This document shows, one piece after another, positions 1-64,000 of a DNA stretch of 64,000 nucleotides; position 1 is the stretch's first letter, and the number at the start of each line of letters is the position of its first letter. A program made the position numbers and the translations under genes. Source of the stretch: Rhynchopus sp. YZ270_cl-10 (taxonomy: Eukaryota > Euglenozoa > Diplonemea > Diplonemida > Diplonemidae); assembly GCA_964035575.1 (NCBI GenBank), contig OZ037900.1, positions 1,240,001-1,304,000 of the forward strand, in the 5' to 3' direction. The notes below the pieces were generated by a model. That model did no database searches. It was not told where the DNA came from and worked only from the letters and a program-made list of their open reading frames with translations.

Positions 1-307
1 AGACTGTACTCTACACAGGATCTGTTTTTGAGTGCATTCGTGTTGAAGATTGTTTTCTTCGGCACAAGACCAAAGCTGGATGATGACATAGGTTGGGCAT
101 GTGCAGCATGAGCACTTGCGATGATTGTCACATACTTCTTGTATTGTTTTGTCTCTCCCCTGTATGGCGCAGGGAAGAGTACCAGGCACAGCCCTTCCAC
201 TTACAGCTTGTTTTTAAGAAAAAAAACCCTAAAAAAGGCTTCACATGACTTTTTTCACCTTCAAGGACATCTTGATCGATAGTTACCTCACTATCCTCGC
301 TATCAAC

Positions 308-316
308 ACGCTTCCA
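308..316 (+). promoter_or_regulatory. Class II upstream box of U5
   Basis: The box reads ACGCTTCCA here and ATGCTTCCA in unit 3 (54101). It starts 50 bp before the inferred U5 5' end, the same spacing as in the SL and U2 genes. The promoter role is inferred from position and recurrence. Confidence 0.6.
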
Positions 317-357
317 CGTGTAGCAAAGTGCATACAGCAATAGAACAAAACAGAGCC

Positions 358-466
358 ATATCACGGTTCTTGCCCATATCGAACTCATCTTTCGCCTTTT
401 ACTAAAGATGACCGTGGGTAAGAGCCACTAAGTGAAAGCATAATTTTTGAAGGGGCCTTTGTGTCT
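358..466 (+). ncRNA. U5: U5 spliceosomal snRNA
   Basis: U5 is the snRNA whose loop 1 holds exon ends during splicing. The invariant loop core GCCTTTTAC lies near 393-402 inside a stem CATCTTT/AAAGATG. The outer stem GGTTCTTGCCCA pairs with TGGGTAAGAGCC. An Sm-type site, AATTTTTGA, follows at 442-450. The start was chosen because ATATCACGGTT resembles the usual U5 5' end and lies 50 bp from the upstream box. The 3' hairpin is weak (GGG with CTC), so the 3' end is approximate. A T5 tract follows at 473-477. Confidence 0.92.
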
Positions 467-494
467 CATCTGTTTTTAAGTCTTGACAACCACT

Positions 495-503
495 ATGCTT
501 CCC
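495..503 (+). promoter_or_regulatory. Class II upstream box of U1
   Basis: An exact ATGCTTCCC (ACGCTTCCC in unit 3), as upstream of SLa. It lies 54 bp before the U1 start used here, or exactly 50 bp if the RNA starts at 545. Confidence 0.6.
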
Positions 504-548
504 TGCTGGTGTTGGAGTTTTGCATGTTGTTAAACTCAGCTAGAGGTT

Positions 549-705
549 ACATACCTTACTGGTGTCTGACCTGATCAACAAGGGCGTCGACACACCAGTG
601 GCCCTTGCATTGCACTGCGCAGGGGATACTGGTGGCACTAGCTTCGGCTGGCTTGCACAGTGAAATTTTTGACAGCGGCGGTGCTGTGCTTTGCACAAAC
701 CCGCC
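549..705 (+). ncRNA. U1: U1 spliceosomal snRNA
   Basis: U1 recognises 5' splice sites. After an unpaired 5' end containing CATACC comes stem-loop I, whose loop CCTGATCAACAAGG resembles the U1-70K loop (GATCACGAAG). Stem-loop II carries CATTGCAC, like the U1A loop ATTGCACTCC. A third hairpin with a TTCG loop follows, then an Sm site AAATTTTTGAC near 663-673 and a final hairpin GGCGG...CCGCC, followed by T5. The length (~157 nt) is close to the human RNA (164 nt). The exact 5' end may be 545-551. CATACC can pair with the GGTATG splice donor of the SL RNA. Confidence 0.88.
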
Positions 706-994
706 TTTTTAAACAAACAAACAAACCAAAACAAACGTGATCACACAAACCATCATGTCACCCAGTAAACCCAGTAAACCCAGCACACTGGTCTAGAGGG
801 ATCGACCACTGAGTGGTGACCTGTGAGCACACAGGCACCTGCTCCGATGCAGTAGTGCAGCGCACTAAGTGCTGTGCTAAGGACTGGCCAAACTTGTTAA
901 ACCTGCTGACCCACAAACCGGTTTTCACAACCGAAGCAAAAACAAGCTCAGAAATAAAAAGCTCTTCAAAGGTTTTCGAACCTGACTCAGTATT

Positions 995-1113
995 GGATTC
1001 GGCCATACTCTGGTGAATACACCTCATCCCGCCTGATTTGAGAAGTTAAGCACCAGCAGGCCTGGATAGTACTGGCGTGGGTGACCAGCTGGGAAGTCCG
1101 GGTGCTTGAATCC
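995..1113 (+). rRNA. 5S: 5S ribosomal RNA
   Basis: A 119-nt 5S rRNA. Helix I is GGATTC at the 5' end pairing with GAATCC at the 3' end. Inside are GCCTGATTTGAGAAGTTAAG, GGCCTGGATAGTACTGG and GACCAGCTGGGAA, matching the eukaryotic 5S core and internal Pol III promoter. A T5 terminator follows at once. Confidence 0.96.
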
Positions 1114-1161
1114 TTTTTGCTTTTCTTCCGTGTTGGTGTGTGGTTTTAGGACATCCAGACC

Positions 1162-1180
1162 CTGACCCACCTCCAACAAG
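1162..1180 (+). promoter_or_regulatory. Class III upstream box of Y (copy 1)
   Basis: CTGACCCACCTCCAACAAG, followed by an AAGAC...GTCTT inverted repeat. The same box lies 57 bp before U6, 7SL and both X RNAs, so it marks a start near 1219. Confidence 0.65.
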
Positions 1181-1218
1181 ACAACCCTGTCTTGTATCCC
1201 TGTGTTTGTTGCACTATC

Positions 1219-1596
1219 CAGAGAGCAGAAATGAGGGGAGACTACACCACCGACGGTGCTTCAGCCTACAGGAGCATGCTGGAATGTGAATGCTGCATGA
1301 CAGCATTCACAATTTCACCTTTGGTGAGATGGAGATGAGCGCAAAGGTGCAAAAATGCACAACAAAAACTGAGGAAGAGGCATCCATACTCCCCAGAAGG
1401 GACGTGCGCACCTGCAGCCAAAAATTCTCCTGTGCTTAATATCATGCGCGCTGGGGATGCCGAAATAGCTAAACTGTTGCAAGAAGTGGGACTAATTCCC
1501 AGGCAGTTGCCCTGTACAACATGCAAGTCCACAATGCCAGAAACACTGTACTGGACACCAAGATACTCCAAGAAGATCGCAAACTGGCCTTATTTT
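1219..1596 (+). ncRNA. Unidentified RNA locus Y, copy 1
   Basis: No family recognised. The start is inferred by placing it 57 bp after the class III box. The end is the first TTTT tract. The locus holds a strong 10-bp hairpin (GTGAATGCTG/CAGCATTCAC) near 1281-1305 followed by AATTTCACC and a small hairpin TCACC/GGTGA. It is identical in both copies of unit 1 and nearly so in units 2 and 3. I looked for U3, U4, RNase P and RNase MRP signatures and found none that convinced me. A minus-strand 101-codon ORF overlaps it and has no support as a gene. Confidence 0.45.
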
Positions 1597-1749
1597 AGGT
1601 GAAATGACCTAATGCAGAGTGCAGCGGAACAGGGGAGACAAATAAAGTTTCCTGTACCATGCAACACCCAAGACCTTTTGCACAAGTGAAGCAAAAACAA
1701 GCTCAGAAATAAAAAGCTCTTCAAAGGTTTTCGAACCTGACTCAGTATT

Positions 1750-1868
1750 GGATTCGGCCATACTCTGGTGAATGCACCTCATCCCGCCTGATTTGAGAAG
1801 TTAAGCACCAGCAGGCCTGGATAGTACTGGCGTGGGTGACCAGCTGGGAAGTCCGGGTGCTTGAATCC
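1750..1868 (+). rRNA. 5S: 5S ribosomal RNA
   Basis: Second 5S of the 755-bp modules. It differs from the first by A to G in the GAATACACC stretch (GAATGCACC here). Confidence 0.96.
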
Positions 1869-1916
1869 TTTTTGCTTTTCTTCCGTGTTGGTGTGTGGTT
1901 TTAGGACATCCAGACC

Positions 1917-2706: not shown

Positions 2707-2778
2707 GGGTATATAGCTCAGTGGTAGAGCATTCGGCTGCAGTCCGAACGGTCCCTGGTTCGAACCCGGGTGTGCCCT
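2707..2778 (+). tRNA. tRNA-Cys(GCA)
   Basis: Full cloverleaf. Anticodon stem TTCGG/CCGAA encloses loop CTGCAGT. The T-arm loop is TTCGAAC. Acceptor GGGTATA pairs with TGTGCCC through G-T wobbles. A T5 tract lies shortly downstream. Confidence 0.96.
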
Positions 2779-2879
2779 CTCTTTTTGTTTCAAGACCAGA
2801 TTTTCTCTTGAGTGTTACTTCTCCCTTTTTGGTTTTGAATTCCATCCCCACCTTGTAAAGATTCGTTTAAGAAATGTAA

Positions 2880-2952
2880 GGGGGTTTAGCTCAAATGGTA
2901 GAGCGCTCGCTCAGCATGCGAGAGGTAGAGGGATCGATACCCTCAATCTCCA
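2880..2952 (+). tRNA. tRNA-Ala(AGC), odd loops
   Basis: Acceptor GGGGGTT/AATCTCC, anticodon stem CTCGC/GCGAG, loop TCAGCAT. Position 33 is C instead of the near-universal T. The T loop is ATCGATA, with A54 and A60-side changes, so the B box is also atypical. No long T tract follows directly (CATTTTTT begins 3 bases on). Confidence 0.88.
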
Positions 2953-3043
2953 AACATTTTTTGGCTTGGAAACACTGTTGTGATATTTCCAGATCTCAAT
3001 TCTTTTTGGTACCAAAGAAAAAGAAGGAAGCGACAGAATTGTA

Positions 3044-3115
3044 TCTCCTATGGTGTAGTGGTTAGCACTCGAGACTCTGAATCTCGCGACCGCGGTTCGA
3101 ATCCGCGTAGGAGAA
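3044..3115 (+). tRNA. tRNA-Gln(CTG)
   Basis: Acceptor TCTCCTA/TAGGAGA, anticodon stem CGAGA/TCTCG with loop CTCTGAA, T loop TTCGAAT. Confidence 0.96.
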
Positions 3116-3208
3116 CTTTCCTTTTTCTCCGTTTCGTCCCTTGTTATTCTCCTCTGTGACTGGTTGAAACGCATTCCCACTTCCATATTCTTGTTGGCTT
3201 TTATTGAA

Positions 3209-3290
3209 GGCGAGATGGCCGAGTGGTCTAAGGCGCCAGGTTAAGGCCCTGGTCCCTTCGGGGGCGTGGGTTCAAACCCCACTCTCGTCA
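3209..3290 (+). tRNA. tRNA-Leu(AAG)
   Basis: Class II tRNA with a long variable arm closed on TTCG. Anticodon stem CCAGG/CCTGG with loop TTAAGGC. Acceptor GGCGAGA/TCTCGTC. Confidence 0.95.
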
Positions 3291-3379
3291 CTTGTTATTC
3301 TTTTTCATTTTCATTTTCAATCTATCCCTTTTGTTTTGTTTTCAAGATTGTGCAAAACACAAAAAGCACACTTGTCAGG

Positions 3380-3452
3380 TCCTCCTTGGCGCAGTCGGTA
3401 GCGCGTCAGGCTGTTAACCTGCAGGTCGTTGGTTCGAACCCAACAGGAGGAG
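3380..3452 (+). tRNA. tRNA-Asn(GTT)
   Basis: Anticodon loop CTGTTAA in stem CAGG/CCTG, acceptor TCCTCCT/AGGAGGA, discriminator G. A second copy lies at 8864. T6 terminator. Confidence 0.96.
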
Positions 3453-3511
3453 ACTTTTTTCCCTTCTCAAACCATTTTCTGTTCTTTGCAAAAGTCATAA
3501 AAAACTGGGAA

Positions 3512-3593
3512 GGCGAGATGGCCGAGCGGTCTAAGGCGCCAGGTTTAGGCCCTGGTCTCTTCGGAGGCGTGGGTTCAAACCCCACTCTCGTCA
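3512..3593 (+). tRNA. tRNA-Leu(TAG)
   Basis: Close paralog of the Leu(AAG) gene at 3209. Anticodon loop TTTAGGC; variable arm CTCTTCGGAG. Confidence 0.95.
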
Positions 3594-3657
3594 CGTTATT
3601 ACCATTTTTCCGCAGAAAACCCACCTCTTGTGGAAAACAGTTCCGGTCATTATTGTA

Positions 3658-3730
3658 GCAGCTATCGTCTAGTGGTTAGGACGCTCGCCTCACACGCGAG
3701 AGATCGTCGGTTCAATCCCGACTAGCTGTA
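3658..3730 (+). tRNA. tRNA-Val(CAC)
   Basis: Anticodon stem CTCGC/GCGAG with loop CTCACAC, T loop TTCAATC, acceptor GCAGCTA/TAGCTGT (G1-T72 wobble). Confidence 0.95.
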
Positions 3731-3820
3731 ATTTCTTTTTGAACTTTCCTTCACATTTTCGTTCAATGCAACGATCGAAAAGATGTCCCCATGCAGATAA
3801 TAGTTTTGCCTACTATCAGA

Positions 3821-3892
3821 TCCGCTGTAGTATAGTGGTTAGAACAGCCGGCTCTCACCCGGCAGACCGGGGTTCAATTCCCCGCAGCGGAA
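3821..3892 (+). tRNA. tRNA-Glu(CTC)
   Basis: Anticodon stem GCCGG/CCGGC with loop CTCTCAC, acceptor TCCGCTG/CAGCGGA. Confidence 0.96.
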
Positions 3893-3986
3893 AATACCTT
3901 TTTTTAGACCAAGTTTTGGAGAGAAGAATTTCTGACTTTTGAATATTAACGCCATCATGTAAATCTGGATGAAGAAAATAATCAGT

Positions 3987-4058
3987 GGCTTAGTGGTCTA
4001 GTGGCATGATTCTCGCTTCGGGTGCGAGAGGTCCAGGGTTCGATTCCCTGCTGAGCCC
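3987..4058 (+). tRNA. tRNA-Pro(CGG)
   Basis: Anticodon loop TTCGGGT in stem CTCGC/GCGAG, T loop TTCGATT, discriminator C as expected for Pro. Confidence 0.96.
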
Positions 4059-4272
4059 CTCTTTTTATTTAGGTAGTTTCTTGCTTGGGAATTGTTTAGA
4101 AAAATTATTTCCACATCTTTTCGACCACCAAAATCCCAAGATGAAGAAGTTTGGAAAAGTGCATTTTTGTGAAAGTATTTTGCCATATCTTTGTTGTCAC
4201 CAAAATCCCAAGATGGTGAGAGAATCTTGAAAAATCATTTTCCATATTTTCACTTCCCAGTGAAAAAGAGAA

Positions 4273-4345
4273 TACCCATGGTGGGGATCGAACCCACAAT
4301 CTTTCGCTTAGGAAGCGAACGCCTTATCCATTGGGCTACACGGGC
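4273..4345 (-). tRNA. tRNA-Arg(CCT)
   Basis: Minus strand. Anticodon stem TTCGC/GCGAA with loop TTCCTAA, acceptor GCCCGTG/CATGGGT with wobbles. Confidence 0.95.
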
Positions 4346-4451
4346 CTAATAGTTTTACCTTCTTTCCTTTTCTCTGGGGTGGTCAAATTTAGGACAAGAG
4401 ACTTTTCTGCATGACCACCCCACAATGATTCTTTGGTTTAAATGAATGTGA

Positions 4452-4524
4452 GCCTCCCTAGCTCAGTCGGTAGAGCGCAAGGCCCTTAACCTTGTGGTCG
4501 CGGGTTCGAGCCCCGCGGGAGGTG
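4452..4524 (+). tRNA. tRNA-Lys(CTT)
   Basis: Anticodon stem CAAGG/CCTTG with loop CCCTTAA, acceptor GCCTCCC/GGGAGGT. The same gene recurs on the other strand at 9494. Confidence 0.96.
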
Positions 4525-4859
4525 CTTTTCTTTTTGAATGTTCACGATTTTGCAGGTTTCTGAGATTTTGAGGCAAATGAAAACCAAAAAATATTTCCTC
4601 CACTTGATCTCAGTTCTGTTTCGTTGGCAAGTTGAGAGTGGAATTTGGGTGAAAATATGTGTTTTCCGAACCAACACAGGACTCCCACCGACCGGTGTAG
4701 GTTTTGCGTTCAACCAGGTGTGAACTGCTTCCACTCGCGAAAAGTGCCAGACCCTTTTGCTGGGGATAGCACGTTTCAGCCCCACAACTTATCTCCTTTC
4801 TGGGCATGTCCAGTGTGCTCAGCTGCCGCTTCTTGGCGACTCACCAGTACAGAGTGGTG

Positions 4860-5192
4860 GAATCCAGCACAGAATGGAATGGCTGGGAAATCCTTAGCAA
4901 TCCATAATTCAGATGGAAAAACTCCTGACCCGGCTATTGAATTTTCGGATCATTTTCTCAGTCACAATGCAAGCACAGAATGGAAACCAAAACCAAGCAC
5001 AGAATGGAACACGGCTATAAGACTCCAGCCATTCCATTCTGTGCTGGTTTTTCGTTTCCATTCTGTGCTTGCATTGTGACTGAGAAAATGATCTGAAAAT
5101 TCAATACCCGGGTCAGGAGTTTTTTTTTCCACTCCTAACAAATCCTTACAGTAAGCCTATAAGTCTCCAGCCATTCCATTCTGTGCTGGTTT
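4860..5192. repeat. Inverted-repeat (fold-back) element
   Basis: Left arm ~4860-4990 is inverted as ~5054-5192: CCAGCACAGAATGGAATGG against CCATTCCATTCTGTGCTGG, and CAGTCACAATGCAAGCACAG against its complement. A smaller inverted repeat of the same AGCACAGAATGG motif fills the middle. The element lies in the 0.8-kb gap between tRNA-Lys and tRNA-Thr, is present in all three units, and shows no ORF or clear target duplication. It looks like a MITE-type relic. Confidence 0.75.
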
Positions 5193-5342
5193 TTGGAGCC
5201 CATTCTGTGAGCACTCGCTCGGGCCTGTACTGGAGTATAGCGGCCAGGCCATCTCCCTTCTGCGTTCCTGCCTGTCACATCCAGTGCTCAGTTGCTGCTT
5301 CTTCAGCACAACCGCATCACATCACATCACCAAAAAATAGAA

Positions 5343-5414
5343 AGGCAACTGGGGGGATCGAACCCCCGACCCTTGGTTTACAAGACCAATGCTCTGCCAC
5401 TGAGCTAAATCGCC
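5343..5414 (-). tRNA. tRNA-Thr(TGT)
   Basis: Anticodon stem TTGGT/ACCAA with loop CTTGTAA (normal T33, unlike the other two Thr genes), acceptor GGCGATT/AGTTGCC. Confidence 0.95.
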
Positions 5415-5496
5415 GCTGATTAAGATGCTTTTGCTGTTTCTCCTGCGAAGAAGTTTTTCAAGACAACACAGAAAGGAAAGTGTGTAAAAAAAGAAA

Positions 5497-5567
5497 TGAC
5501 CCTAGACGGAATCGAACCGCCGTTGATGGATTTGGAATCCATAGTGCTACCGCTACACCATAGGGCC
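5497..5567 (-). tRNA. tRNA-Trp(CCA)
   Basis: Anticodon stem ATGGA/TCCAT with loop TTCCAAA, acceptor GGCCCTA/TAGGGTC. Confidence 0.95.
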
Positions 5568-5652
5568 CATGATTTAGGGCTTCAATGCGTTTAGCATGAA
5601 GGTGGAAATTTTGCTGAAAATCCCACACAAAGGAAAAAGACACACAAAAAAG

Positions 5653-5725
5653 TGCGAGGTGCCAGGATCGAACTGACGACCTTAGGATTATGGGACCTAC
5701 GCGCTCCCGACTGCGCCAACCTCGC
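5653..5725 (-). tRNA. tRNA-Met(CAT), elongator type
   Basis: Acceptor GCGAGGT/ACCTCGC and a normal T loop (TTCGATC) argue for the elongator; the initiator is at 12985. Anticodon loop CCCATAA has C at position 33. Confidence 0.92.
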
Positions 5726-5849
5726 CTTGATATTATCGTATCATTAAGAAATACATGGGGTGCAAATTTCTACAGGTTTGTGTGGCAAAAAAATTTTTTT
5801 GAGCCAAAAAATTTTATGGGCTTCTGTGAAAACAATGACAGTTGTAGAA

Positions 5850-5933
5850 CCTCTCGTAGCTCAATTGGTAGAGCGCTCGACTGTAGAATACTCGGTTATC
5901 GAGCGGTCGCTGGTTCGATTCCGGCCGAGAGGA
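5850..5933 (+). tRNA. tRNA-Tyr(GTA) with 11-nt intron
   Basis: Stem CTCGA/TCGAG encloses an 18-nt stretch, 11 more than a normal loop. The loop reads CTGTAG then an intron of about AATACTCGGTT, then A38. Tyr is the only intron-bearing tRNA in the unit, the commonest intron position in eukaryotes (37/38). Acceptor CCTCTCG/CGAGAGG; T7 follows. Confidence 0.94.
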
Positions 5934-6010
5934 TTTTTTTCATTTTCGTGTTCCAGGTTATATTCTTCAAACAGATGACTGCCTAAAAACAAAGAACGGT
6001 GAGAATTACA

Positions 6011-6092
6011 GCAGTCGTATCCAAGTGGTTACGGAGGTGGACTAGAAATCCATTGGGCTCTGCCCGCGCAGGTTCAAGTCCTGCCGACTGCG
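6011..6092 (+). tRNA. tRNA-Ser(AGA)
   Basis: Class II tRNA. Anticodon stem GTGGA/TCCAT with loop CTAGAAA, long variable arm, acceptor GCAGTCG/CGACTGC, discriminator G. Confidence 0.95.
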
Positions 6093-6190
6093 ATTCATTT
6101 TTTGTTCACAAATTTTCGTGCATTTTCGTCGTTTCTGTGCTCATTTTAGACCATTTTGATGCGCGAAAATAAATCAGAGTGAAGATTGTA

Positions 6191-6262
6191 TCCTCGGTAG
6201 TATAGAGGTCAGTATTTCCGCCTGTCACGCGGAAGACCCGGGTTCAATTCCCGGCCGGGGAA
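6191..6262 (+). tRNA. tRNA-Asp(GTC)
   Basis: Anticodon loop CTGTCAC in stem TCCGC/GCGGA, acceptor TCCTCGG/CCGGGGA. A second copy is at 12487. Confidence 0.96.
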
Positions 6263-6324
6263 TTCTTTTTTGTACAGGGCTCCCACTCATTGTTTCGTTT
6301 CTTTTCTGATGAAAATCAAATCAG

Positions 6325-6397
6325 GCCCCGTTGGCGCAATGGATAGCGCGTTGGACTTCGAATCCAAAGGTTGCGGGTTCGAGTCCCGCACGGGGTT
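6325..6397 (+). tRNA. tRNA-Arg(TCG)
   Basis: Anticodon stem TTGGA/TCCAA with loop CTTCGAA, acceptor GCCCCGT/ACGGGGT. Confidence 0.96.
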
Positions 6398-6667
6398 AAC
6401 TTTTTGAACATTGTTTTTTTGAACTTTTTTGAAAACACAAAAAAGTGAGGTTGGTGTCAAGTGAAATCACAGTGGAACAACAGATACAAATTTGGGTCCA
6501 GTGGGAAGGGGTCTCCCAGGAATTTTGGATTTTTTGGCAGTCAACCCATCCAGAAGAACCTTAAAAAATCTTGGGAAAAACTTGAAAACTGGAAATTCTT
6601 TGAAAAGCTGACATTTCAGAATTTTTTTCTGAACATGAAAATTTTACTTCCTCCTAAAAAAAAGAAC

Positions 6668-6739
6668 TGCACTTACCGGGAGTCGAACCCGGGCCGCTCG
6701 CTTGGAAGGCGAGAATACTAACCGTTATACCATAAGTGC
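6668..6739 (-). tRNA. tRNA-Gly(TCC)
   Basis: Anticodon loop CTTCCAA in stem CTCGC/GCGAG, acceptor GCACTTA/TAAGTGC, T loop TTCGACT. Confidence 0.95.
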
Positions 6740-6828
6740 TGTTACTTTCATGCAAAGTGTTTTCTTTGTGGGGGGCAATTTCAAAATAAAAAAAATTTGA
6801 AATTGTTCAAATTGCCCAAAAAAAGAAG

Positions 6829-6900
6829 CAACCGTGGCAGGACTCGAACCTGCAACCGCCTGATCCGTGGTCAGGCGCTCTTCCATTGAGCCACACGGTC
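6829..6900 (-). tRNA. tRNA-Arg(ACG)
   Basis: Anticodon stem CCTGA/TCAGG with loop CCACGGA (C33), acceptor GACCGTG/CACGGTT with a G1-T72 wobble, discriminator G. Confidence 0.92.
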
Positions 6901-6987
6901 CATGTCTTTAGGCAATAGTATTTTTTATGTGGCCTGCATATTTTTGGAGTTGGAAAAAATGAAAATGGTTGATTGCACAGCTAAAAA

Positions 6988-7059
6988 AGCGGTTACCGAG
7001 AATTGAACTCGGGTCTCCCGTGCCACAAACGGGTGTTCTAACCACTAAACCATAACCGC
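6988..7059 (-). tRNA. tRNA-His(GTG)
   Basis: Anticodon stem CCCGT/ACGGG with loop TTGTGGC, acceptor GCGGTTA/TAACCGC. The genome has A, not G, at position -1, so G-1 would be added after transcription as in other eukaryotes. Confidence 0.95.
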
Positions 7060-7175
7060 TTGAATATTCCCACTTATTGGGATCTCAGAAAGGGTTTTAT
7101 TTCCTGGGATATTGTGAAATATTTTTCAAACATGCAACGAGCGGCAACTCGAGCACAATTTCGACTAATATCGTA

Positions 7176-7246
7176 GCGTAATTGGTCTAGTGGTAGAATG
7201 GCCCCCCGCCACGGGGTCGGCCCGGGTTCGATTCCCGGATTACGCA
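7176..7246 (+). tRNA. tRNA-Gly(GCC)
   Basis: Anticodon loop CCGCCAC in a CCCC/GGGG stem, acceptor GCGTAAT/ATTACGC, T loop TTCGATT. Confidence 0.95.
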
Positions 7247-7603
7247 CTCTCTTTTTGCGTTTGGCAAAAGCAAAACAATATGTTTCGGACAGTTTCAGGT
7301 CGGTCACAAACTCGTTCAAAACGAAAAAGTGGAAATGATATGTACTCTTTCTTGCGTAAGGATTATTAGTAGAGAAAAAAATTTCTTGTCTGATGATACG
7401 GGTTTTTGCTCGACATAGTTTGCGAGTAAGTCAGTTCGGTCACAACTTCCATCACAATTGCAAAAAAAATTGGGACTACAACATGTTCATAAACCCAACC
7501 TGACTTACATGTTTATTTCTTCACAAAATTCCCAGTAAATAAACATGCACATCAGTATGGCCGGTGCGCTGGTCAGAGACATCACGTTTGCGGGCCAACC
7601 CCT

Positions 7604-7797
7604 CTGTGCGCCCGATTAGGAATATCCCCCTGTGCGCCCGATTAGCTTACCCCCCTGTGCGCCCGATTAGGAATATCCCCCTGTGCGCCCGATTAGCTTA
7701 CCCCCCTGTGCGCCCGATTAGGGACCCCCCTGTGCGCCCGGTTAGCTTTACCCCCCTGTGCGCCCGATTAGGAATATCCCCCTGTGCGCCCGATTAG
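7604..7797. repeat. Tandem array of a ~26-bp motif
   Basis: About eight copies of CTGTGCGCCCGATTAG separated by alternating spacers GGAATATCCCC and CTTACCCCCC. It lies in a ~1-kb gene-free gap that also has duplicated GTCACTGTGACCAGGTGCC stretches (7830, 7978) and two GGTATGTCGGG tips (7880, 8056). Confidence 0.9.
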
Positions 7798-8298
7798 GAA
7801 CCACTCTGTGCACCTACCTAGTCACTGTGACCAGGTGCCCCTACTAATATGCCTTACCAATATGGCCTGGGCTGTGTGGTATGTCGGGTGTACTACATGC
7901 TGGGACCTAAAGAGGAACCACATGCTGGAACACAGCTTTAAGCCCCCACCCATTTCAGCTGTGGTTCCTACTGTGCCCAGTCACTGTGACCAGGTGCCTG
8001 GTCAGATCTGACCAGGTACCCTTACTAATATGCCTGACCAATATGGCCAGGGGTGGTATGTCGGGTGCACAAGGGAGTTTCACGATGGGTTATCTTATGC
8101 ACAGGTACAGTGGATGTAGAAAACCCACAAACCCATTGTGTGTGGGTTTTCTGGCATAGGACTGTATGGAAAGTGCACGGGTCCACCACAGTACAACCAG
8201 TCATGCACCAAGGGACACTGGCTGTTTTATCACTTTTTGAACTTTTTTAGACACTGCCAAACCTTCTCCATAATCTGAGATCTTGGGAAACAAGATAA

Positions 8299-11211: not shown

Positions 11212-11218
11212 GCCTCTT

Positions 11219-56081: not shown

Positions 56082-56153
56082 TCTCCTATGGTGTAGTGGT
56101 TAGCACTCGAGACTCTGAATCTCGCGACCGCGGTTCGAATCCGCGTAGGAGAA
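56082..56153 (+). tRNA. tRNA-Gln(CTG), unit 3
   Basis: Counterpart of 3044. Confidence 0.96.
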
Positions 56154-56246
56154 CTTTCCTTTTTCTCCATTTCGTCCCTTGTTATTCTCCTCTATGACTG
56201 GTTGAAACACATTCCCACTTCCATATTCTTGTTGGCTTTTATTGAA

Positions 56247-56328
56247 GGCGAGATGGCCGAGTGGTCTAAGGCGCCAGGTTAAGGCCCTGGTCCCTTCGGG
56301 GGCGTGGGTTCAAACCCCACTCTCGTCA
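56247..56328 (+). tRNA. tRNA-Leu(AAG), unit 3
   Basis: Counterpart of 3209. Confidence 0.95.
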
Positions 56329-56417
56329 CTTGTTATTCTTTTTCATTTTCATTTTCAATCTATCCCTTTTGTTTTGTTTTCAAGATTGTGCAAAACACAA
56401 AAAGCACACTTGTCAGG

Positions 56418-56490
56418 TCCTCCTTGGCGCAGTCGGTAGCGCGTCAGGCTGTTAACCTGCAGGTCGTTGGTTCGAACCCAACAGGAGGAG
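56418..56490 (+). tRNA. tRNA-Asn(GTT), unit 3
   Basis: Counterpart of 3380. Confidence 0.96.
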
Positions 56491-56549
56491 ACTTTTTTCC
56501 CTTCTCAAACCATTTTCTGTTCTTTGCAAAAGTCATAAAAAACTGGGAA

Positions 56550-56631
56550 GGCGAGATGGCCGAGCGGTCTAAGGCGCCAGGTTTAGGCCCTGGTCTCTTC
56601 GGAGGCGTGGGTTCAAACCCCACTCTCGTCA
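56550..56631 (+). tRNA. tRNA-Leu(TAG), unit 3
   Basis: Counterpart of 3512. Confidence 0.95.
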
Positions 56632-56695
56632 CGTTATTACCATTTTTCCGCAGAAAACCCACCTCTTGTGGAAAACAGTTCCGGTCATTATTGTA

Positions 56696-56768
56696 GCAGC
56701 TATCGTCTAGTGGTTAGGACGCTCGCCTCACACGCGAGAGATCGTCGGTTCAATCCCGACTAGCTGTA
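56696..56768 (+). tRNA. tRNA-Val(CAC), unit 3
   Basis: Counterpart of 3658. Confidence 0.95.
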
Positions 56769-56858
56769 ATTTCTTTTTGAACTTTCCTTCACATTTTCGT
56801 TCAATGCAACGATCGAAAAGATGTCCCCATGCAGATAATAGTTTTGCCTACTATCAGA

Positions 56859-56930
56859 TCCGCTGTAGTATAGTGGTTAGAACAGCCGGCTCTCACCCGG
56901 CAGACCGGGGTTCAATTCCCCGCAGCGGAA
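56859..56930 (+). tRNA. tRNA-Glu(CTC), unit 3
   Basis: Counterpart of 3821. Confidence 0.96.
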
Positions 56931-57024
56931 AATACCTTTTTTTAGACCAAGTTTTGGAGAGAAGAATTTCTGACTTTTGAATATTAACGCCATCATGTAA
57001 ATCTGGATGAAGAAAATAATCAGT

Positions 57025-57096
57025 GGCTTAGTGGTCTAGTGGCATGATTCTCGCTTCGGGTGCGAGAGGTCCAGGGTTCGATTCCCTGCTGAGCCC
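57025..57096 (+). tRNA. tRNA-Pro(CGG), unit 3
   Basis: Counterpart of 3987. Confidence 0.96.
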
Positions 57097-57310
57097 CTCT
57101 TTTTATTTAGGTAGTTTCTTGCTTGGGAATTGTTTAGAAAAATTATTTCCACATCTTTTCGACCACCAAAATCCCAAGATGAGGAAGTTTGGAAAAGTGC
57201 ATTTTTGTGAAAGTATTTTGCCATATCTTTGTTGTCACCAAAATCCCAAGATGGTGAGAGAATCTTGAAAAATCATTTTCCATATTTTCACTTCCCAGTG
57301 AAAAAGAGAA

Positions 57311-57383
57311 TACCCATGGTGGGGATCGAACCCACAATCTTTCGCTTAGGAAGCGAACGCCTTATCCATTGGGCTACACGGGC
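57311..57383 (-). tRNA. tRNA-Arg(CCT), unit 3
   Basis: Counterpart of 4273. Confidence 0.95.
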
Positions 57384-57489
57384 CTAATAGTTTTACCTTC
57401 TTTCCTTTTCTCTGGGGTGGTCAAATTTAGGACAAGAGACTTTTCTGCATGACCACCCCACAATGATTCTTTGGTTTAAATGAATGTGA

Positions 57490-57562
57490 GCCTCCCTAGC
57501 TCAGTCGGTAGAGCGCAAGGCCCTTAACCTTGTGGTCGCGGGTTCGAGCCCCGCGGGAGGTG
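57490..57562 (+). tRNA. tRNA-Lys(CTT), unit 3
   Basis: Counterpart of 4452. Confidence 0.96.
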
Positions 57563-57897
57563 CTTTTCTTTTTGAATGTTTACGATTTTGCAGGTTTCTG
57601 AGATTTTGAGGCAAATGAAAACCAAAAAATATTTCCTCCACTTGATCTCAGTTCTGTTTCGTTGGCAAGTTGAGAGTGGAATTTGGGTGAAAATATGTGT
57701 TTTCCGAACCAACACAGGACTCCCACCGACCGGTGTAGGTTTTGCGTTCAACCAGGTGTGAACTGCTTCCACTCGCGAAAAGTGCCAGACCCTTTTGCTG
57801 GGGATAGCACGTTTCAGCCCCACAACTTATCTCCTTTCTGGGCATGTCCAGTGTGCTCAGCTGCCGCTTCTTGGCGACTCACCAGTACAGAATGGTG

Positions 57898-58230
57898 GAA
57901 TCCAGCACAGAATGGAATGGCTGGGAAATCCTTAGCAATCCATAATTCAGATGGAAAAACTCCTGACCTGGCTATTGAATTTTCGGATCATTTTCTCAGT
58001 CACAATGCAAGCACAGAATGGAAACCAAAACCAAGCACAGAATGGAACACGGCTATAAGACTCCAGCCATTCCATTCTGTGCTGGTTTTTCGTTTCCATT
58101 CTGTGCTTGCATTGTGACTGAGAAAATGATCTGAAAATTCAATACCCGGGTCAGGAGTTTTTTTTTCCACTCCTAACAAATCCTTACAGTAAGCCTATAA
58201 GTCTCCAGCCATTCCATTCTGTGCTGGTTT
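57898..58230. repeat. Inverted-repeat element, unit 3
   Basis: Counterpart of 4860; shares the two unit-2 variants. Confidence 0.75.
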
Positions 58231-58382
58231 TTGGAGCCCATTCTGTGAGCACTCGCTCGGGCCTGTACTGGAGTATAGCGGCCAGGCCATCTCCCTTCTG
58301 CGTTCCTGCCTGTCACATCCAGTGCTCAGTTGCTGCTTCTTCAGCACAACCGCATCACACATCACATCACCAAAAAATAGAA

Positions 58383-58454
58383 AGGCAACTGGGGGGATCG
58401 AACCCCCGACCCTTGGTTTACAAGACCAATGCTCTGCCACTGAGCTAAATCGCC
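58383..58454 (-). tRNA. tRNA-Thr(TGT), unit 3
   Basis: Counterpart of 5343. Confidence 0.95.
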
Positions 58455-58536
58455 GCTGATTAAGATGCTTTTGCTGTTTCTCCTGCGAAGAAGTTTTTCA
58501 AGACAACACAGAAAGGAAAGTGTGTAAAAAAAGAAA

Positions 58537-58607
58537 TGACCCTAGACGGAATCGAACCGCCGTTGATGGATTTGGAATCCATAGTGCTACCGCTACACCA
58601 TAGGGCC
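58537..58607 (-). tRNA. tRNA-Trp(CCA), unit 3
   Basis: Counterpart of 5497. Confidence 0.95.
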
Positions 58608-58692
58608 CATGATTTAGGGCTTCAATGCGTTTAGCATGAAGGTGGAAATTTTGCTGAAAATCCCACACAAAGGAAAAAGACACACAAAAAAG

Positions 58693-58765
58693 TGCGAGGT
58701 GCCAGGATCGAACTGACGACCTTAGGATTATGGGACCTACGCGCTCCCGACTGCGCCAACCTCGC
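58693..58765 (-). tRNA. tRNA-Met(CAT) elongator, unit 3
   Basis: Counterpart of 5653. Confidence 0.92.
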
Positions 58766-58889
58766 CTTGATATTATCGTATCATTAAGAAATACATGGGG
58801 TGCAAATTTCTACAGGTTTGTGTGGCAAAAAAATTTTTTTGAGCCAAAAAATTTTATGGGCTTCTGTGAAAACAATGACAGTTGTAGAA

Positions 58890-58973
58890 CCTCTCGTAGC
58901 TCAATTGGTAGAGCGCTCGACTGTAGAATACTCGGTTATCGAGCGGTCGCTGGTTCGATTCCGGCCGAGAGGA
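58890..58973 (+). tRNA. tRNA-Tyr(GTA) with intron, unit 3
   Basis: Counterpart of 5850. Confidence 0.94.
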
Positions 58974-59050
58974 TTTTTTTCGTTTTCGTGTTCCAGATTA
59001 TTTTCTGCAAACAGATGACTGCCTAAAAACAAAGAACGGTGAGAATTACA

Positions 59051-59132
59051 GCAGTCGTATCCAAGTGGTTACGGAGGTGGACTAGAAATCCATTGGGCTC
59101 TGCCCGCGCAGGTTCAAGTCCTGCCGACTGCG
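59051..59132 (+). tRNA. tRNA-Ser(AGA), unit 3
   Basis: Counterpart of 6011. Confidence 0.95.
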
Positions 59133-59230
59133 ATTCATTTTTTGTTCACGAATTTTCGTGCATTTTCGTCGTTTCTGTGCTCATTTTAGACCATTTTGAT
59201 GCGCGAAATTAAATCAGAGTGAAGATTGTA

Positions 59231-59302
59231 TCCTCGGTAGTATAGAGGTCAGTATTTCCGCCTGTCACGCGGAAGACCCGGGTTCAATTCCCGGCCGGGG
59301 AA
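59231..59302 (+). tRNA. tRNA-Asp(GTC), unit 3
   Basis: Counterpart of 6191. Confidence 0.96.
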
Positions 59303-59364
59303 TTCTTTTTTGTACAGGGCTCCCACTCATTGTTTCGTTTCTTTTCTGATGAAAATCAAATCAG

Positions 59365-59437
59365 GCCCCGTTGGCGCAATGGATAGCGCGTTGGACTTCG
59401 AATCCAAAGGTTGCGGGTTCGAGTCCCGCACGGGGTT
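59365..59437 (+). tRNA. tRNA-Arg(TCG), unit 3
   Basis: Counterpart of 6325. Confidence 0.96.
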
Positions 59438-59723
59438 AACTTTTTGAACATTGTTTTTTTGAACTTTTTTGAAAACACAAAAAAGTGAGAGGTTGGTGTC
59501 AAATGAATTACAGTGACAAGTTACAGTCACAACAGATAAAAACATTGGGTCCAGTGGGAAGGGGTCACCCCGGGATTTTGGATTTTTTGGTAGTCAACCC
59601 ACCCATAAGAACCTTGAAAAAATTTTGGGAAAAACTTGAAAACTGGAAATTCTTTGAAAAGCTGACATTTCAGAAAAAATTTTCTGAACATGAAAATTTT
59701 GCTTCCCCCTTTAAAAAAAGAAC

Positions 59724-59795
59724 TGCACTTACCGGGAGTCGAACCCGGGCCGCTCGCTTGGAAGGCGAGAATACTAACCGTTATACCATAAGTGC
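59724..59795 (-). tRNA. tRNA-Gly(TCC), unit 3
   Basis: Counterpart of 6668; the spacer before it is clearly diverged while the gene is not. Confidence 0.95.
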
Positions 59796-59884
59796 TGTTA
59801 CTTTCATGCAAAGTGTTTTCTTTGTGAGGGGCGATTTCAAAATGAAAATAATTTCAAATTCTTCAAATTGCCTAAAAAAAGAAG

Positions 59885-59956
59885 CAACCGTGGCAGGACT
59901 CGAACCTGCAACCGCCTGATCCGTGGTCAGGCGCTCTTCCATTGAGCCACACGGTC
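59885..59956 (-). tRNA. tRNA-Arg(ACG), unit 3
   Basis: Counterpart of 6829. Confidence 0.92.
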
Positions 59957-60045
59957 CATGTCTTTAGGCAATAGTATTTTTTATGTGGCCTGCATATTTT
60001 TGGAGTTGAAAAAAAAATTTAGACGGTTGATTGTACAGCTAAAAA

Positions 60046-60117
60046 AGCGGTTACCGAGAATTGAACTCGGGTCTCCCGTGCCACAAACGGGTGTTCTAAC
60101 CACTAAACCATAACCGC
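60046..60117 (-). tRNA. tRNA-His(GTG), unit 3
   Basis: Counterpart of 6988. Confidence 0.95.
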
Positions 60118-60233
60118 TTGAATATTCCCACTTATTGGGATCTCAGAAAGGGTTTTATTTCGAGGGATATTGTGAAATATTTTTCAACCATGCAACGAGC
60201 GGCAACTCGAGCACAATTTCGACTAATATCGTA

Positions 60234-60304
60234 GCGTAATTGGTCTAGTGGTAGAATGGCCCCCCGCCACGGGGTCGGCCCGGGTTCGATTCCCGGATTA
60301 CGCA
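60234..60304 (+). tRNA. tRNA-Gly(GCC), unit 3
   Basis: Counterpart of 7176. Confidence 0.95.
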
Positions 60305-60477
60305 CTCTCTTTTTGCGATTGACAAAAGCAAAACAATATGGTTTCGGACAGTTTCAGGTCAGTCACAAACTCGTTCAAAACGAAAAAGTGGAAATGATAT
60401 GTACTCTTTCTTGTGTAAGGATTCTTAGTGGAGAAAGAAATTTTTTGTCTGATGCCGGTTTTTGCTCGACATAGTAA

Positions 60478-60800
60478 GTCAGTTCAGTCACAACTTCCGT
60501 CACAATCGAAAAAAAATTTGACTCATATGTTTATAAACCCATGCTGACTTACATGTTTATTTGTTCACAAAAATCCCAGTTCATAAACATGTAAGTCAGT
60601 ATGGCCGCTCTGGTGGCCGCATGTTTTTGGGTTAACTTACGTGTTTATGAAAAACCTGACTTACATGTTTATTTGTTCACAAAATTCCCTGGGTTAATAA
60701 CCATGTAAGTCAGGTTTTTCATAACCATGTAAGTCAGGTTGGGACTACAACATGTTCATAAACCCAACCTGACTTACATGTATATTTCTTCACAAAATTC
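60478..60800. repeat. Expanded inverted repeats of TGACTTACATGTTTAT
   Basis: Several copies of ACATGTAAGTCAG and its complement within 300 bp, forming hairpins. The matching spot in units 1 and 2 (about 7480-7560) has only one pair. Confidence 0.8.
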
Positions 60801-60854
60801 CCAAGATATGGCCGGTGCACTGGTCAGAGACATCACGTTTGCGGGCCAACCCCC

Positions 60855-60963
60855 CTGTGCGCCCGATTAGCTTACCCCCCTGTGCGCCCGATTAGGAATA
60901 CCCCCCTGTGCGCCCGATTAGGGATCCCCCTGTGCGCCCGATTAGCTTACCCCCTGTGCGCCC
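60855..60963. repeat. ~26-bp repeat array, unit 3 (shorter)
   Basis: About five copies of CTGTGCGCCC(GATTAG), against eight in units 1 and 2. Confidence 0.88.
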
Positions 60964-61323
60964 ACCTACCTAGTCACTGTGACCAGGTGCCTGGTCAGAT
61001 CTGACCAGGTACCCTTACTAATATGCCTTACCAATATGGCCAGGGGTGTGGTATGTTGGGTGCACAAGGGAGTTTCACGATGGGGGAATACATGCTGGAC
61101 ATGTGCCTTATCTTATGCACAGGTGCAATGGATGGCATAGCAAACCCGTATGCCCATTGCGTGTGTGGGTTTGCTGGCCTAGGACTGTACGGAAAGTGCA
61201 CGGGTCCACCACAGTACAACCAGTCATGCACCAAGGGCAACTGGCTGTTTTATCAATTTTTGAACTTTTTTTTAGACATTGCCAAACCTTCTCCATAATC
61301 TGAGATCTTGGGAAACAAGATAA

Positions 61324-61395
61324 GCTCGCGTGGCGCAATGGAAGCGCGTCGGTTCCCGACGCCGGAGGTTGCGGGTTCGATCCCCGCCGCGAGTA
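61324..61395 (+). tRNA. tRNA-Arg(CCG), unit 3
   Basis: Counterpart of 8299. Confidence 0.9.
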
Positions 61396-61506
61396 CTTTT
61401 TGTTCATTCCAAAATATTTTTAGATTTCCTCCTTTGCCAAATTGAAAATTCAGAAATGCGAAAATATCAAAAAACAGCTCCGAAATTTGAAAGCAATTAA
61501 AAAGGA

Positions 61507-61578
61507 TTCCCCCTCCGGGGTTTGAACCCGGGTCGCCTGGGTGAAAGCCAGGTATACTAACCACTGTACTAAAGGGGA
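61507..61578 (-). tRNA. tRNA-Glu(TTC), unit 3
   Basis: Counterpart of 8508. Confidence 0.95.
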
Positions 61579-61675
61579 GGTGATACTTAGGCACAATCCA
61601 AAAAGGGTACTTTTGTGCAAGGAACACGGAATTTCAAACGAAAAAATAAATAAAAATGAAAATCCAAAAAGACAA

Positions 61676-61747
61676 GGGCTCGGCGGGGAATTGAACCCCG
61701 GACCTCTCGCACCCTAAGCGAGAATCATGCCACTAGACCACCGAGCC
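61676..61747 (-). tRNA. tRNA-Pro(AGG), unit 3
   Basis: Counterpart of 8678. Confidence 0.96.
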
Positions 61748-61861
61748 ACGAATTCTCTCGCATTCTCTTCGTAACGCGGCCATAAGTTTCCATCATTCCT
61801 TGTGTGTGTTTTCGTTTTGAATAAGGTCCCCATGTAAATGCTGTCTTCGCTAACAATCAGA

Positions 61862-61934
61862 TCCTCCTTGGCGCAGTCGGTAGCGCGTCAGGCTGTTAAC
61901 CTGCAGGTCGTTGGTTCGAACCCAACAGGAGGAG
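61862..61934 (+). tRNA. tRNA-Asn(GTT) second copy, unit 3
   Basis: Counterpart of 8864. Confidence 0.96.
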
Positions 61935-62187
61935 ATTTTTCATTTTTTTGAGTTTTTGATTCTATTTTTGATTTTGAGCTAAAAATCCACATTGTGTGTC
62001 ATCTTGATGTTGAAACTATTTTTCAGATTTCCAAGGTTGTCTCACCAAAAAAACCAAACATCTTGAATGCTGTCCTAACTTGGAGATTGTTGACCTGAAG
62101 ATAAAACAGATTTTGTCAGGTTTTTTTTTTGAGTTTGAAAAAGTTCAGAACAGAATGAAAAAAGGGATCGATGCAGTGTATAAAAAA

Positions 62188-62269
62188 CGCGAACGGCAAG
62201 GTTCGAACTTGCGCATGCAGAGCACACTCGCTTAGCAGGCGAGCCCCGTAACCACTTGGGTACGTCCGC
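62188..62269 (-). tRNA. tRNA-Ser(GCT), unit 3
   Basis: Counterpart of 9193. Confidence 0.95.
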
Positions 62270-62489
62270 TTAATTACCTGTCAGTACTTAGGACGAAGCT
62301 TGTACTTTGTTTAACGACACGTTAGTGATCACTTGTGTGGTCACCAAAAATCATCGCAATTGTGACCACCAAAAAAATTTTTTGGGCACGATTTCGCGCG
62401 ATGGTGAGCTCATTGCACGACGGCCGACACACCATGTTTTCCAACAAATTTAAAAAATTCCAGAAAAATTCAGGTATCAATACAAAAAG

Positions 62490-62562
62490 CACCTCCCGCG
62501 GGGCTCGAACCCGCGACCACAAGGTTAAGGGCCTTGCGCTCTACCGACTGAGCTAGGGAGGC
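62490..62562 (-). tRNA. tRNA-Lys(CTT) second copy, unit 3
   Basis: Counterpart of 9494. Confidence 0.96.
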
Positions 62563-62664
62563 TCATATTAACTTAAATCAAAGAATCAACGTGGGGTACT
62601 TGTGTGTACCTGCAACCACCAAATTTTCCATCGTTGTTGCGTGAACAAAAGGATCCGGATTATC

Positions 62665-62736
62665 TCTCCTATGGTGTAGTGGTTAGCACCCTGGACTTTG
62701 AATCCAGTAGCCGCGGTTCAAACCCGCGTGGGAGAA
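62665..62736 (+). tRNA. tRNA-Gln(TTG), unit 3
   Basis: Counterpart of 9669. Confidence 0.96.
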
Positions 62737-62850
62737 CTTTTCTTTTTCCAAGTGTTTTCAATATTTTTTGGAGCTTTGTCACACACATCTTCAATCTCTG
62801 CATTTGATGACAAAACATAGATCACAGAAATCAAACGAAAAGGTAAAGAA

Positions 62851-62932
62851 CGCTGACGGCAGGGTTCGAACCTGCGCGGGCAGAGCCCAGTGGATTTCAA
62901 GTCCACCTCCGTAACCACTTGGATACGTCAGC
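62851..62932 (-). tRNA. tRNA-Ser(TGA), unit 3
   Basis: Counterpart of 9856. Confidence 0.95.
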
Positions 62933-63009
62933 ATAGTTGAGGAAGTACAACGCCCCAGATCCTGAAAATGAGCGCAAAAAAGAGAATCCAATTGATCCAA
63001 AAAAGTAGG

Positions 63010-63081
63010 CACCCGCCGTGGGGATCGAACCCACGACCATTGGATTAAAAGTCCAACGCTCTACCGCTGAGCTAGGCGGGC
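63010..63081 (-). tRNA. tRNA-Lys(TTT), unit 3
   Basis: Counterpart of 10015. Confidence 0.96.
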
Positions 63082-63194
63082 ATTCGTTTTAAAGGAAAGA
63101 GTCAATTTCAAGGCTTGTTGCGTTCTTGAAAAAAACTGACAAAAAGACGAACAGAAAGTGCCCCAAGTACGTCTCCTTGAGGGACATTTATCAG

Positions 63195-63266
63195 GGGCGT
63201 TTAGCTCAGTGGTAGAGCGCCCGTTCTGCATACGGGAGGCCGAGGGTTCGAACCCCTCAATGTCCA
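63195..63266 (+). tRNA. tRNA-Ala(TGC), unit 3
   Basis: Counterpart of 10202. Confidence 0.93.
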
Positions 63267-63339
63267 TTTTTTTGCCTTATTTTGTTGATTATTTTTTGGT
63301 TGGGCCAGTTAACACACAAAAATATGAACTGGCACCATT

Positions 63340-63815
63340 GTGCAGTGCCTGCGATGAGGATGTGTGTGATGGTCCAATTGGCGAGTCTGATGTCATAATG
63401 TGTTCAGGAACATCCAAATGACCCATTTTCCCAACGTTTTCACATTTTTGAGCATTTTGCTATTACGCAATAGTGGTACAATAGGCATTTTACTGGGTCA
63501 TTTTAACCAACTCTATCAGGACACTTCTGATGCTCCAATTGGCGATTCTGACCTCATAATGGCTTCATGAGCAGCCGAATAACCCGTTTTCCAAATATTT
63601 TCACATTTTTGAACATTTTGCCATTCGTGGAATGGTGGCACAAAAGTCATTTTACTGGGTCATTTTCGCCAACTCGATCAGGGGACACTTCTGGTGCTCC
63701 AATTTGCGGTTCTGACCTCATAATGGATTCAAGAGCACCCAAATAACCCATTTTCCCAACGTTTTCACATTTTTGACCATTTTGCTGTTGCAGAGTATCA
63801 GTAAGATGAGGTCAT
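63340..63815 (+). repeat. Satellite S block, unit 3 (one copy shorter)
   Basis: Counterpart of 10330 with about one 162-bp copy fewer before tRNA-Ile. Confidence 0.87.
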
Positions 63816-63891
63816 GCAAATACAGTTTTGTGCACAACAGAAAAAAAATAGTGTGTACCCCAGGTTGGCGATTCCTTTCGTCATTATTGTC

Positions 63892-63964
63892 GGTCGTGTA
63901 GCTCAGTCGGTAGAGCATTGGTCTAATAAGCCAACGGTCCCAGGTTCGAGCCCTGTCACGACCA
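63892..63964 (+). tRNA. tRNA-Ile(AAT), unit 3
   Basis: Counterpart of 11059; last gene before the window end. Confidence 0.96.
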
Positions 63965-64000
63965 ATACTTTTTCTACTACTTTGACTTTGACCTGTTCAA

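Follow-up and report, generated by a model that had tools for sequence, protein, structure and literature searches.

Can one tandem unit hold nearly the whole set of small stable RNA genes of a cell? The question is raised by a 64,000-nucleotide stretch of DNA from a diplonemid-like euglenozoan (the window; positions 1,240,001 to 1,304,000 of contig C68 in an assembly of 152.4 Mb and 126 contigs). For this stretch, a first-pass annotation had proposed a 26- to 28-kb unit, repeated head to tail, that combines transfer RNA (tRNA), 5S ribosomal RNA (rRNA), spliced leader (SL) RNA, small nuclear RNA (snRNA) and 7SL genes. Our analysis suggests that the genome of this organism draws its small stable RNAs mainly from this composite tandem repeat, and for the tested genes almost exclusively, a reading to which we assign a probability of roughly 0.8.

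Self-BLAST of the window delimits two complete units arranged head to tail, followed by a partial third: unit 1 (1-25,933; 25,933 bp), unit 2 (25,934-53,791; 27,858 bp, a 1,947-bp insertion included) and unit 3 (53,792-64,000), which is cut by the window end. The unit directly left of the window (C68:1,214,068-1,240,000) is 100% identical to all 25,933 bases of unit 1, and the proposed unit length and head-to-tail order are borne out. Unit 1 holds 65 genes in 25.9 kb, and the order of neighbors within the window runs SL, U2, U4, U3, U5, U1, 5S.

The tRNA genes of unit 1, 48 in number and lying on both strands, form a block at 2707-14919 (ARAGORN and Rfam), and all 48 have TTTT no more than 30 nt downstream. 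By our own count from the ARAGORN output, they represent 44 anticodons plus a separate initiator Met (45 tRNA species), one anticodon fewer than the 45 plus initiator given at first. The gene at 12985-13057 (-) has an A1-T72 end and a GGG/CCC anticodon stem, which we take to be the diagnostic features of the initiator, and tRNA-Tyr(GTA) at 5850-5933 (+) contains an 11-nt intron (ARAGORN, introns allowed). Measured against what we take to be the usual eukaryotic anticodon set, tRNA-Leu(UAA) is the sole tRNA missing from unit 1; a strict pattern for it gave no match in the genome, a pattern that a divergent gene could escape. The 5S genes a to c lie on the plus strand at 995-1114, 1750-1869 and 2505-2624 (RF00001, 89.3/88.7 bits), and genes d and e on the minus strand at 14145-14264 and 15470-15589 (89.3 bits). 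Units 1 and 2 each carry five 5S genes, and the plus strand of the visible part of unit 3 carries two, not three.

The snRNA genes comprise U5 at 359-469 (+; RF00020, 85.8 bits), U1 at 547-705 (+; RF00003, 68.0 bits, E = 4e-15), U6 at 23372-23477 (+; RF00026, 93.7 bits), U2 at 25286-25476 (-; RF00004, 141.6 bits) and U4 at 25632-25771 (-; RF00015, 63.3 bits), accompanied by the 7SL RNA of the signal recognition particle (SRP) at 23963-24270 (+; RF00017, 129.3 bits). The 5S, U2, U4, U5, U6 and 7SL matches exceed the Rfam gathering threshold, and U1 falls marginally under it (69.5 bits). At 2-209 (+), a candidate U3 small nucleolar RNA scores 34.3 bits with the Plant_U3 model, well under the gathering value of 80, with E values of 8e-6 in a 26-kb search and 8e-8 in a 260-base search; its alignment retains the 5' ACAGGATCTGT block and the TGATGA box. 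Scores this strong from Rfam and ARAGORN over so many genes are not due to chance. The 48 tRNA, five 5S, five SL, U1, U2, U5, U6 and 7SL genes of the first-pass annotation were all recovered on unit 1 by ARAGORN, Rfam or leader search, and its two unidentified RNAs are probably U4 and the U3 candidate.

Unit 1 has five SL genes. SL gene 1, on the plus strand at 22262-22377, with ends that are putative, consists of a 40-nt leader followed by an intron with a stem-loop and a T run, and genes 2 to 5 start at 22696, 23115, 23695 and 24438. The leader, with its start placed by inference, reads AACCAACGATTTCTAAAGCTACAGTTTCTGTACTTCATTG. Compared with the 39-nt 'Euglenozoa 14' leader (PMC3795323), it has one inserted base and two changed bases. 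Exact dinoflagellate, trypanosome and Euglena leader patterns had no match within the window. We take the 'Euglenozoa 14' entry to be Diplonema, and the leader and the missing Leu-UAA gene together probably indicate diplonemid affinity. Among the open reading frames of two flanking loci, inspection by eye yielded no usable protein marker.

To follow these genes through the whole assembly, copies were counted by a pattern search that reports complete totals, with up to 3 mismatches allowed for the tRNAs and U6. There are 82 copies of tRNA-Trp (82 exact), 86 of initiator Met (85 exact and one with one mismatch), 81 of tRNA-Phe (81 exact) and 97 of tRNA-Cys (97 exact), so that 345 of the 346 pooled tRNA copies are exact. 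U6 has 128 copies, all exact among the 100 matches listed, and the SL 40-mer has 654 exact copies, of which about 100 were listed by position, with none for the reversed-pattern control. We scored a copy as lying near an array marker when a copy of another kind (Trp, initiator Met, Phe, Cys or the first 100 U6) was found within 35 kb. This was the case for 340 of the 346 tRNA copies (Trp 79/82, initiator Met 85/86, Phe 81/81, Cys 95/97) and for 92 of the 100 U6 matches listed (128 in total). The pattern search, within 3 mismatches, revealed no separate, non-array set of Trp, initiator Met, Phe or Cys genes. Whole-genome searches with RF00001 and RF00005 (best 47 of 7,254 and best 63 of 7,713 candidates scored) and with the U2-U4 DNA (best 40 of 131) served for location only. 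The first-pass annotation had held that one tandem unit contains nearly the whole small stable RNA set and had named dispersed copies as the thing to look for; the unit content, the proximity of the four tRNAs to other array markers and that of the listed U6 copies all agree with its claim. It had further supposed that the array fixes the gene ratios, which is contradicted by totals of 81 to 97 for the four tRNAs, 128 for U6 and 654 for SL; the partial state of many units accounts for this spread.

Comparison between units tells how the genes and the DNA between them have changed. A 30-kb stretch of the C2 array contains 50 of 50 tRNA genes in the cyclic order and orientation of unit 1, together with U2, U4, U5, U6 and 7SL, and three 5S genes versus five in unit 1; U1 and U3 do not rise above gathering there, and the corresponding DNA aligns at 98.9%. 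Five SL copies lie at C2:957,986-960,198. With unit 1 as the reference and matches of at least 2 kb, the C2 unit has 0 mismatches in 5,275 gene bases versus 187 in 18,719 spacer bases; the last window unit together with L009 has 1 in 4,070 versus 359 in 13,999, and unit 2 has 2 in 5,993 versus 30 in 19,940. Deleted bases follow the same order of comparison, gene versus spacer (C2, 0 versus 62; last window unit with L009, 0 versus 109; unit 2, 1 versus 36), and spacer divergence across the compared units ranges from 0.15 to 2.6%. The gene copies are held nearly invariant as the spacers drift. The earlier idea that everything in the array evolves together therefore holds for the genes, which are almost identical, and fails for the spacers. 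Since the genes stay near-identical while the spacers differ, selection on the genes appears to act besides homogenization.

Several observations weigh against this reading of the array or limit it. Beyond U6 and SL, the genome-wide counts cover 4 of the 48 tRNA genes, and any copy diverging by more than 3 mismatches would escape them. Five tRNA copies have no other marker within 35 kb, namely, C6:86507 and C14:4718 (Trp), C109:22761 (initiator Met), and C40:1453937 and C51:1402705 (Cys); the same is true of 8 of the 100 listed U6 copies. The sixth exception, the Trp gene at C3:615974, is the one copy shown to be dispersed, in an internal array fragment of 1.19 kb that is 97.4% identical and contains five tRNA genes (L050:4325-5511, corresponding to C3:615,325-616,511). 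Against selection as the sole force, some spacer stretches, for example within 17,417-20,156, are as uniform as the genes, and 19,522-20,156 shows no differences at all, so that recent homogenization also contributes. As for location, arrays lie internally on C1 (about 1.35 to 1.50 Mb) and C2 (about 0.95 to 1.05 Mb), which means that the array is not solely subtelomeric, and markers are near only 46 of 204 contig ends.

These points must be set beside two other accounts of the array. It might be an amplified, partly degenerate by-product at chromosome ends, with the working genes elsewhere. The many partial units (U6 128 versus Phe 81) and the satellites and mobile-element-like repeats in the spacers would suit such an origin, but working genes elsewhere are hard to reconcile with the lack, within 3 mismatches, of a separate Trp, initiator Met, Phe or Cys set, with the exactness and array proximity of nearly all tRNA copies and with genes far less variable than their spacers, and we give this account scarcely any credence. 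The adjacency or the copy number could instead come from misjoined or duplicated contigs, as two identical C68 units, a C2 Trp spacing of exactly 29,214 bp that occurs twice, and the contigs C68, C1, C17 and C66, which stop inside the array, might suggest; the number of copies may be mistaken, and misjoining could have created the internal arrays on C1 and C2. Yet the Trp spacings on C22 vary from 12 to 30 kb, meaning that the units of that array are distinct from one another, the spacers of units 1 and 3 diverge by about 2.6%, the gene order is repeated on C2 and the window contains no N. It seems improbable to us that an assembly artifact accounts for the array.

The upstream regions raise the further question of how genes of different kinds are expressed from one unit. 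A CTTCCCWG-like box, found at 22216-22223 (+), position -46 of SL1, recurs with at least 6 of 8 letters at starts of -46 to -49 in all 10 of the SL1-5 and U1-U5 genes, the starts of U1-U5 being the Rfam model starts. At this stringency it matches 0.7% of positions on both strands of the unit, a figure that is descriptive, the motif having been derived from the scored genes themselves. Outside these genes, it occurs in 5 of the 48 tRNA genes somewhere in the wider span of -60 to -43, at -39 of 7SL, and with 8 of 8 letters at -31 of 5S gene e. A different, 35-nt element lies at 23313-23347 (+), position -59 of U6, and at 23903-23937 (+), position -60 of 7SL, matching 30 and 34 of 35 letters, respectively. 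It has further copies at 1161 (+), 1916 (+), 24624 (+) and 15384 (-). Most simply read, the pattern would mean two types of promoter, one for SL and U1-U5 and one for U6 and 7SL. The adjacent upstream-element classes fit genes of different RNA polymerases (Pol) within one unit. What stands of the first-pass claim that Pol II-type and Pol III-type genes are mixed here is thus the two element classes; which polymerase serves which class, we infer.

It is also conceivable that Pol III transcribes every gene of the unit, even U1-U5, as it does in trypanosomatids, leaving SL as the only source of polymerase mixing. The RNA genes that we looked at all have a T run at or near the 3' end, as such a scheme would predict. 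A tRNA-linked arrangement is known in trypanosomatids for small RNAs other than U3. For trypanosomatid U3 itself, a divergent linked tRNA gene with Pol III boxes has been described (PMC2784804). In the coordinates of unit 1, though, no tRNA gene lies within 2 kb upstream of U1-U6, U3 or 7SL, the -46/-49 box of U1-U5 is common to SL and not to U6 and 7SL, and kinetoplastid SL is made by Pol II (PMC1888695). We regard uniform Pol III transcription as possible and rather doubtful.

The two plus-strand copies of the 35-nt element at 1161 and 1916 are exact and stand behind 5S genes a and b; for an RNA following the element there (about 1221-1600), Rfam gave no credible match. Downstream of the other two copies lie a 322-nt stretch at 24682-25003 (+) and its 330-nt paralog at 15031-15360 (-), each with the U6/7SL-type element upstream, a closing helix GGGTGCT/AGCACCC and a T run, and no credible Rfam match was obtained for the pair. 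The 322-nt stretch differs from C2 at 4 of 322 positions, which is the spacer level, and the 330-nt stretch differs at 4 of 330 in the last window unit and 2 of 330 in C2, about half the spacer level or less. Because the pair varies more from unit to unit than the known genes do, we do not claim it as a new RNA.

Where do the arrays lie? Contigs C1-C102 measure at least 0.88 Mb and later contigs less than 0.18 Mb, by sampled sizes. Markers are present on at least 46 of the contigs C1-C102, and the 46 marker-bearing ends among their 204 were counted with Trp, initiator Met and the first 100 U6 within 300 kb; farther inside, these markers occur only in the C1 and C2 arrays, in the C3 fragment and where the C22 array reaches 303 kb inward. 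The small contigs carry 19 Trp and 22 initiator Met copies. On C29, the unit sequence stops at 1,575,988 and, after a short degenerate stretch, the first perfect (CCCGCAAA)n run begins at 1,576,048, the repeat occupying the last 2.3 kb. Eleven examined contig ends finish in terminal repeat with a marker 0.3 to 87 kb inside, namely, the left ends of C6, C28, C29, C33, C67 and C95 and the right ends of C29, C31, C35, C46 and C86; the markers at C6 are a single Trp and a single Lys copy. The bias toward ends could be inflated where contigs break at repeats, though not for those 11 repeat-terminated ends. U4, the U3 candidate, the presence of the array on many contigs and its frequent closeness to their ends all go beyond the first-pass annotation.

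The terminal repeat has features of its own. At contig starts it appears as (TTTGCGGG)n in 8 of the 13 examined, and a ninth start, that of C1, reaches the repeat after about 560 bp; at contig ends it appears as (CCCGCAAA)n in 9 of the 17 examined, and none has the reverse polarity. This places the C-rich strand 3'-terminal, the reverse of the arrangement in ordinary telomeres, and the repeat may be either the telomere itself or a subterminal satellite. The assembly contains no exact match to (CCCTAA)4 and 43 matches to the backwards pattern (AATCCC)4. Since the unit sequence runs into the contig-terminal repeat and (CCCTAA)4 is absent from the assembly, we tentatively consider that the whole small stable RNA supply may sit in arrays that double as chromosome-end DNA, where recombination between ends might both maintain the ends and homogenize the RNA genes, a proposal we hold to be possible at best.

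Around the window, the C68 array continues rightward until the contig breaks off within it at 1,312,958, and the left flank consists of truncated units and, beyond them, 30.8 kb of a 401-bp satellite in about 77 copies. Every unit holds about three copies of this satellite as well, at 17408-18662 in unit 1. Unit 2 has 47 tRNA genes, as one tRNA-Asp(GTC) is split by the 1,947-bp insertion (38474-40420), which is bounded by an 8-bp target duplication, AATACTGA. The insertion is GC-rich and has long inverted repeats; similar 26-bp repeats are found in spacers (7598, 11399) and near the terminal-repeat junction of C29. On C123, a 174-kb contig, the array is inverted, with units in one direction to about 94 kb and in the opposite direction from about 100 kb.

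Taking the composite repeat as the main source of these RNAs, we propose the following mode of action. The array would supply the tRNAs, 5S, SL and 7SL, all five snRNAs of the major spliceosome and probably U3. Every gene would form its own transcription unit, with a T run after it; tRNA and 5S genes would presumably use internal promoters, U6 and 7SL one upstream element, and SL and U1-U5 the other box. The repeat may amplify and spread, largely among chromosome ends, through unequal and ectopic recombination, while purifying selection, perhaps together with gene conversion, would keep the gene bodies near-invariant and let the spacers drift. The outcome would be a high dosage of translation and splicing RNAs from one type of locus, which may benefit the cell. 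Concerted organization of RNA genes would then be carried to an extreme, with the RNAs of decoding, splicing and trans-splicing and that of the SRP all in one repeat. The array is a natural setting in which to test how 80 to 130 copies of a gene remain identical when the DNA in between drifts, how RNAs of different promoter classes are supplied by a single type of locus and whether RNA gene arrays can belong to chromosome ends, and it suggests that tRNA gene number in a protist genome can follow array copy number rather than dispersed duplication.

The first-pass annotation had called known arrays simpler, and the cases that we could compare agree; in the open-licence PubMed Central literature, as far as it was available, we found no comparable all-in-one unit described. 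In trypanosomatids, as in this unit, small RNA genes are clustered with tRNA genes, and U3 expression needs a divergent upstream tRNA gene (PMC2784804); unlike there, no divergent tRNA gene stands about 100 bp upstream of an snRNA, U3 or 7SL here, nor any tRNA gene within 2 kb. Euglena gracilis has a U3-U5 linkage and SL-5S repeats (PMC2784804), and here too the U3 candidate adjoins U5 and SL accompanies 5S; the Euglena pair is convergent and has not been shown to form an array, whereas here both genes are co-directional within the unit. Almost all tRNA genes of Entamoeba lie in tandem arrays, of 25 types with 1 to 5 tRNA acceptor types each, three including 5S and one a suspected snRNA, and a chromosome-end location was proposed that could not be tested there (PMC2652664). 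Our arrays likewise contain tRNA genes, for all 4 of those counted genome-wide, but they show one unit type with 44 anticodons plus SL, snRNAs and 7SL, in an order repeated on C2, and they are seen beside a contig-terminal repeat. If the arrays do double as chromosome ends, the Entamoeba idea of RNA arrays as chromosome-end structures becomes testable. Diplonema papillatum has SL RNA-5S rRNA-U2 snRNA tandem repeats, up to 27 in a row, that were termed exceptional and seemingly absent in other diplonemids, and its 211 tRNA genes, with at most 10 identical copies, lack tRNA-Leu(UAA) (PMC10161547). As in D. papillatum, SL, 5S and U2 share one repeat here (five SL, five 5S and one U2 in unit 1), and the strict pattern finds no Leu-UAA; unlike that three-gene repeat, this is no short alternation of two or three genes but a unit of 25.9 kb and 65 genes, in which all major snRNAs, the U3 candidate, 7SL and 48 tRNAs are joined. 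The Diplonema SL-5S-U2 repeats and the Entamoeba tRNA arrays are therefore the nearest known cases, and what is new is the far more complete gene set in one unit.

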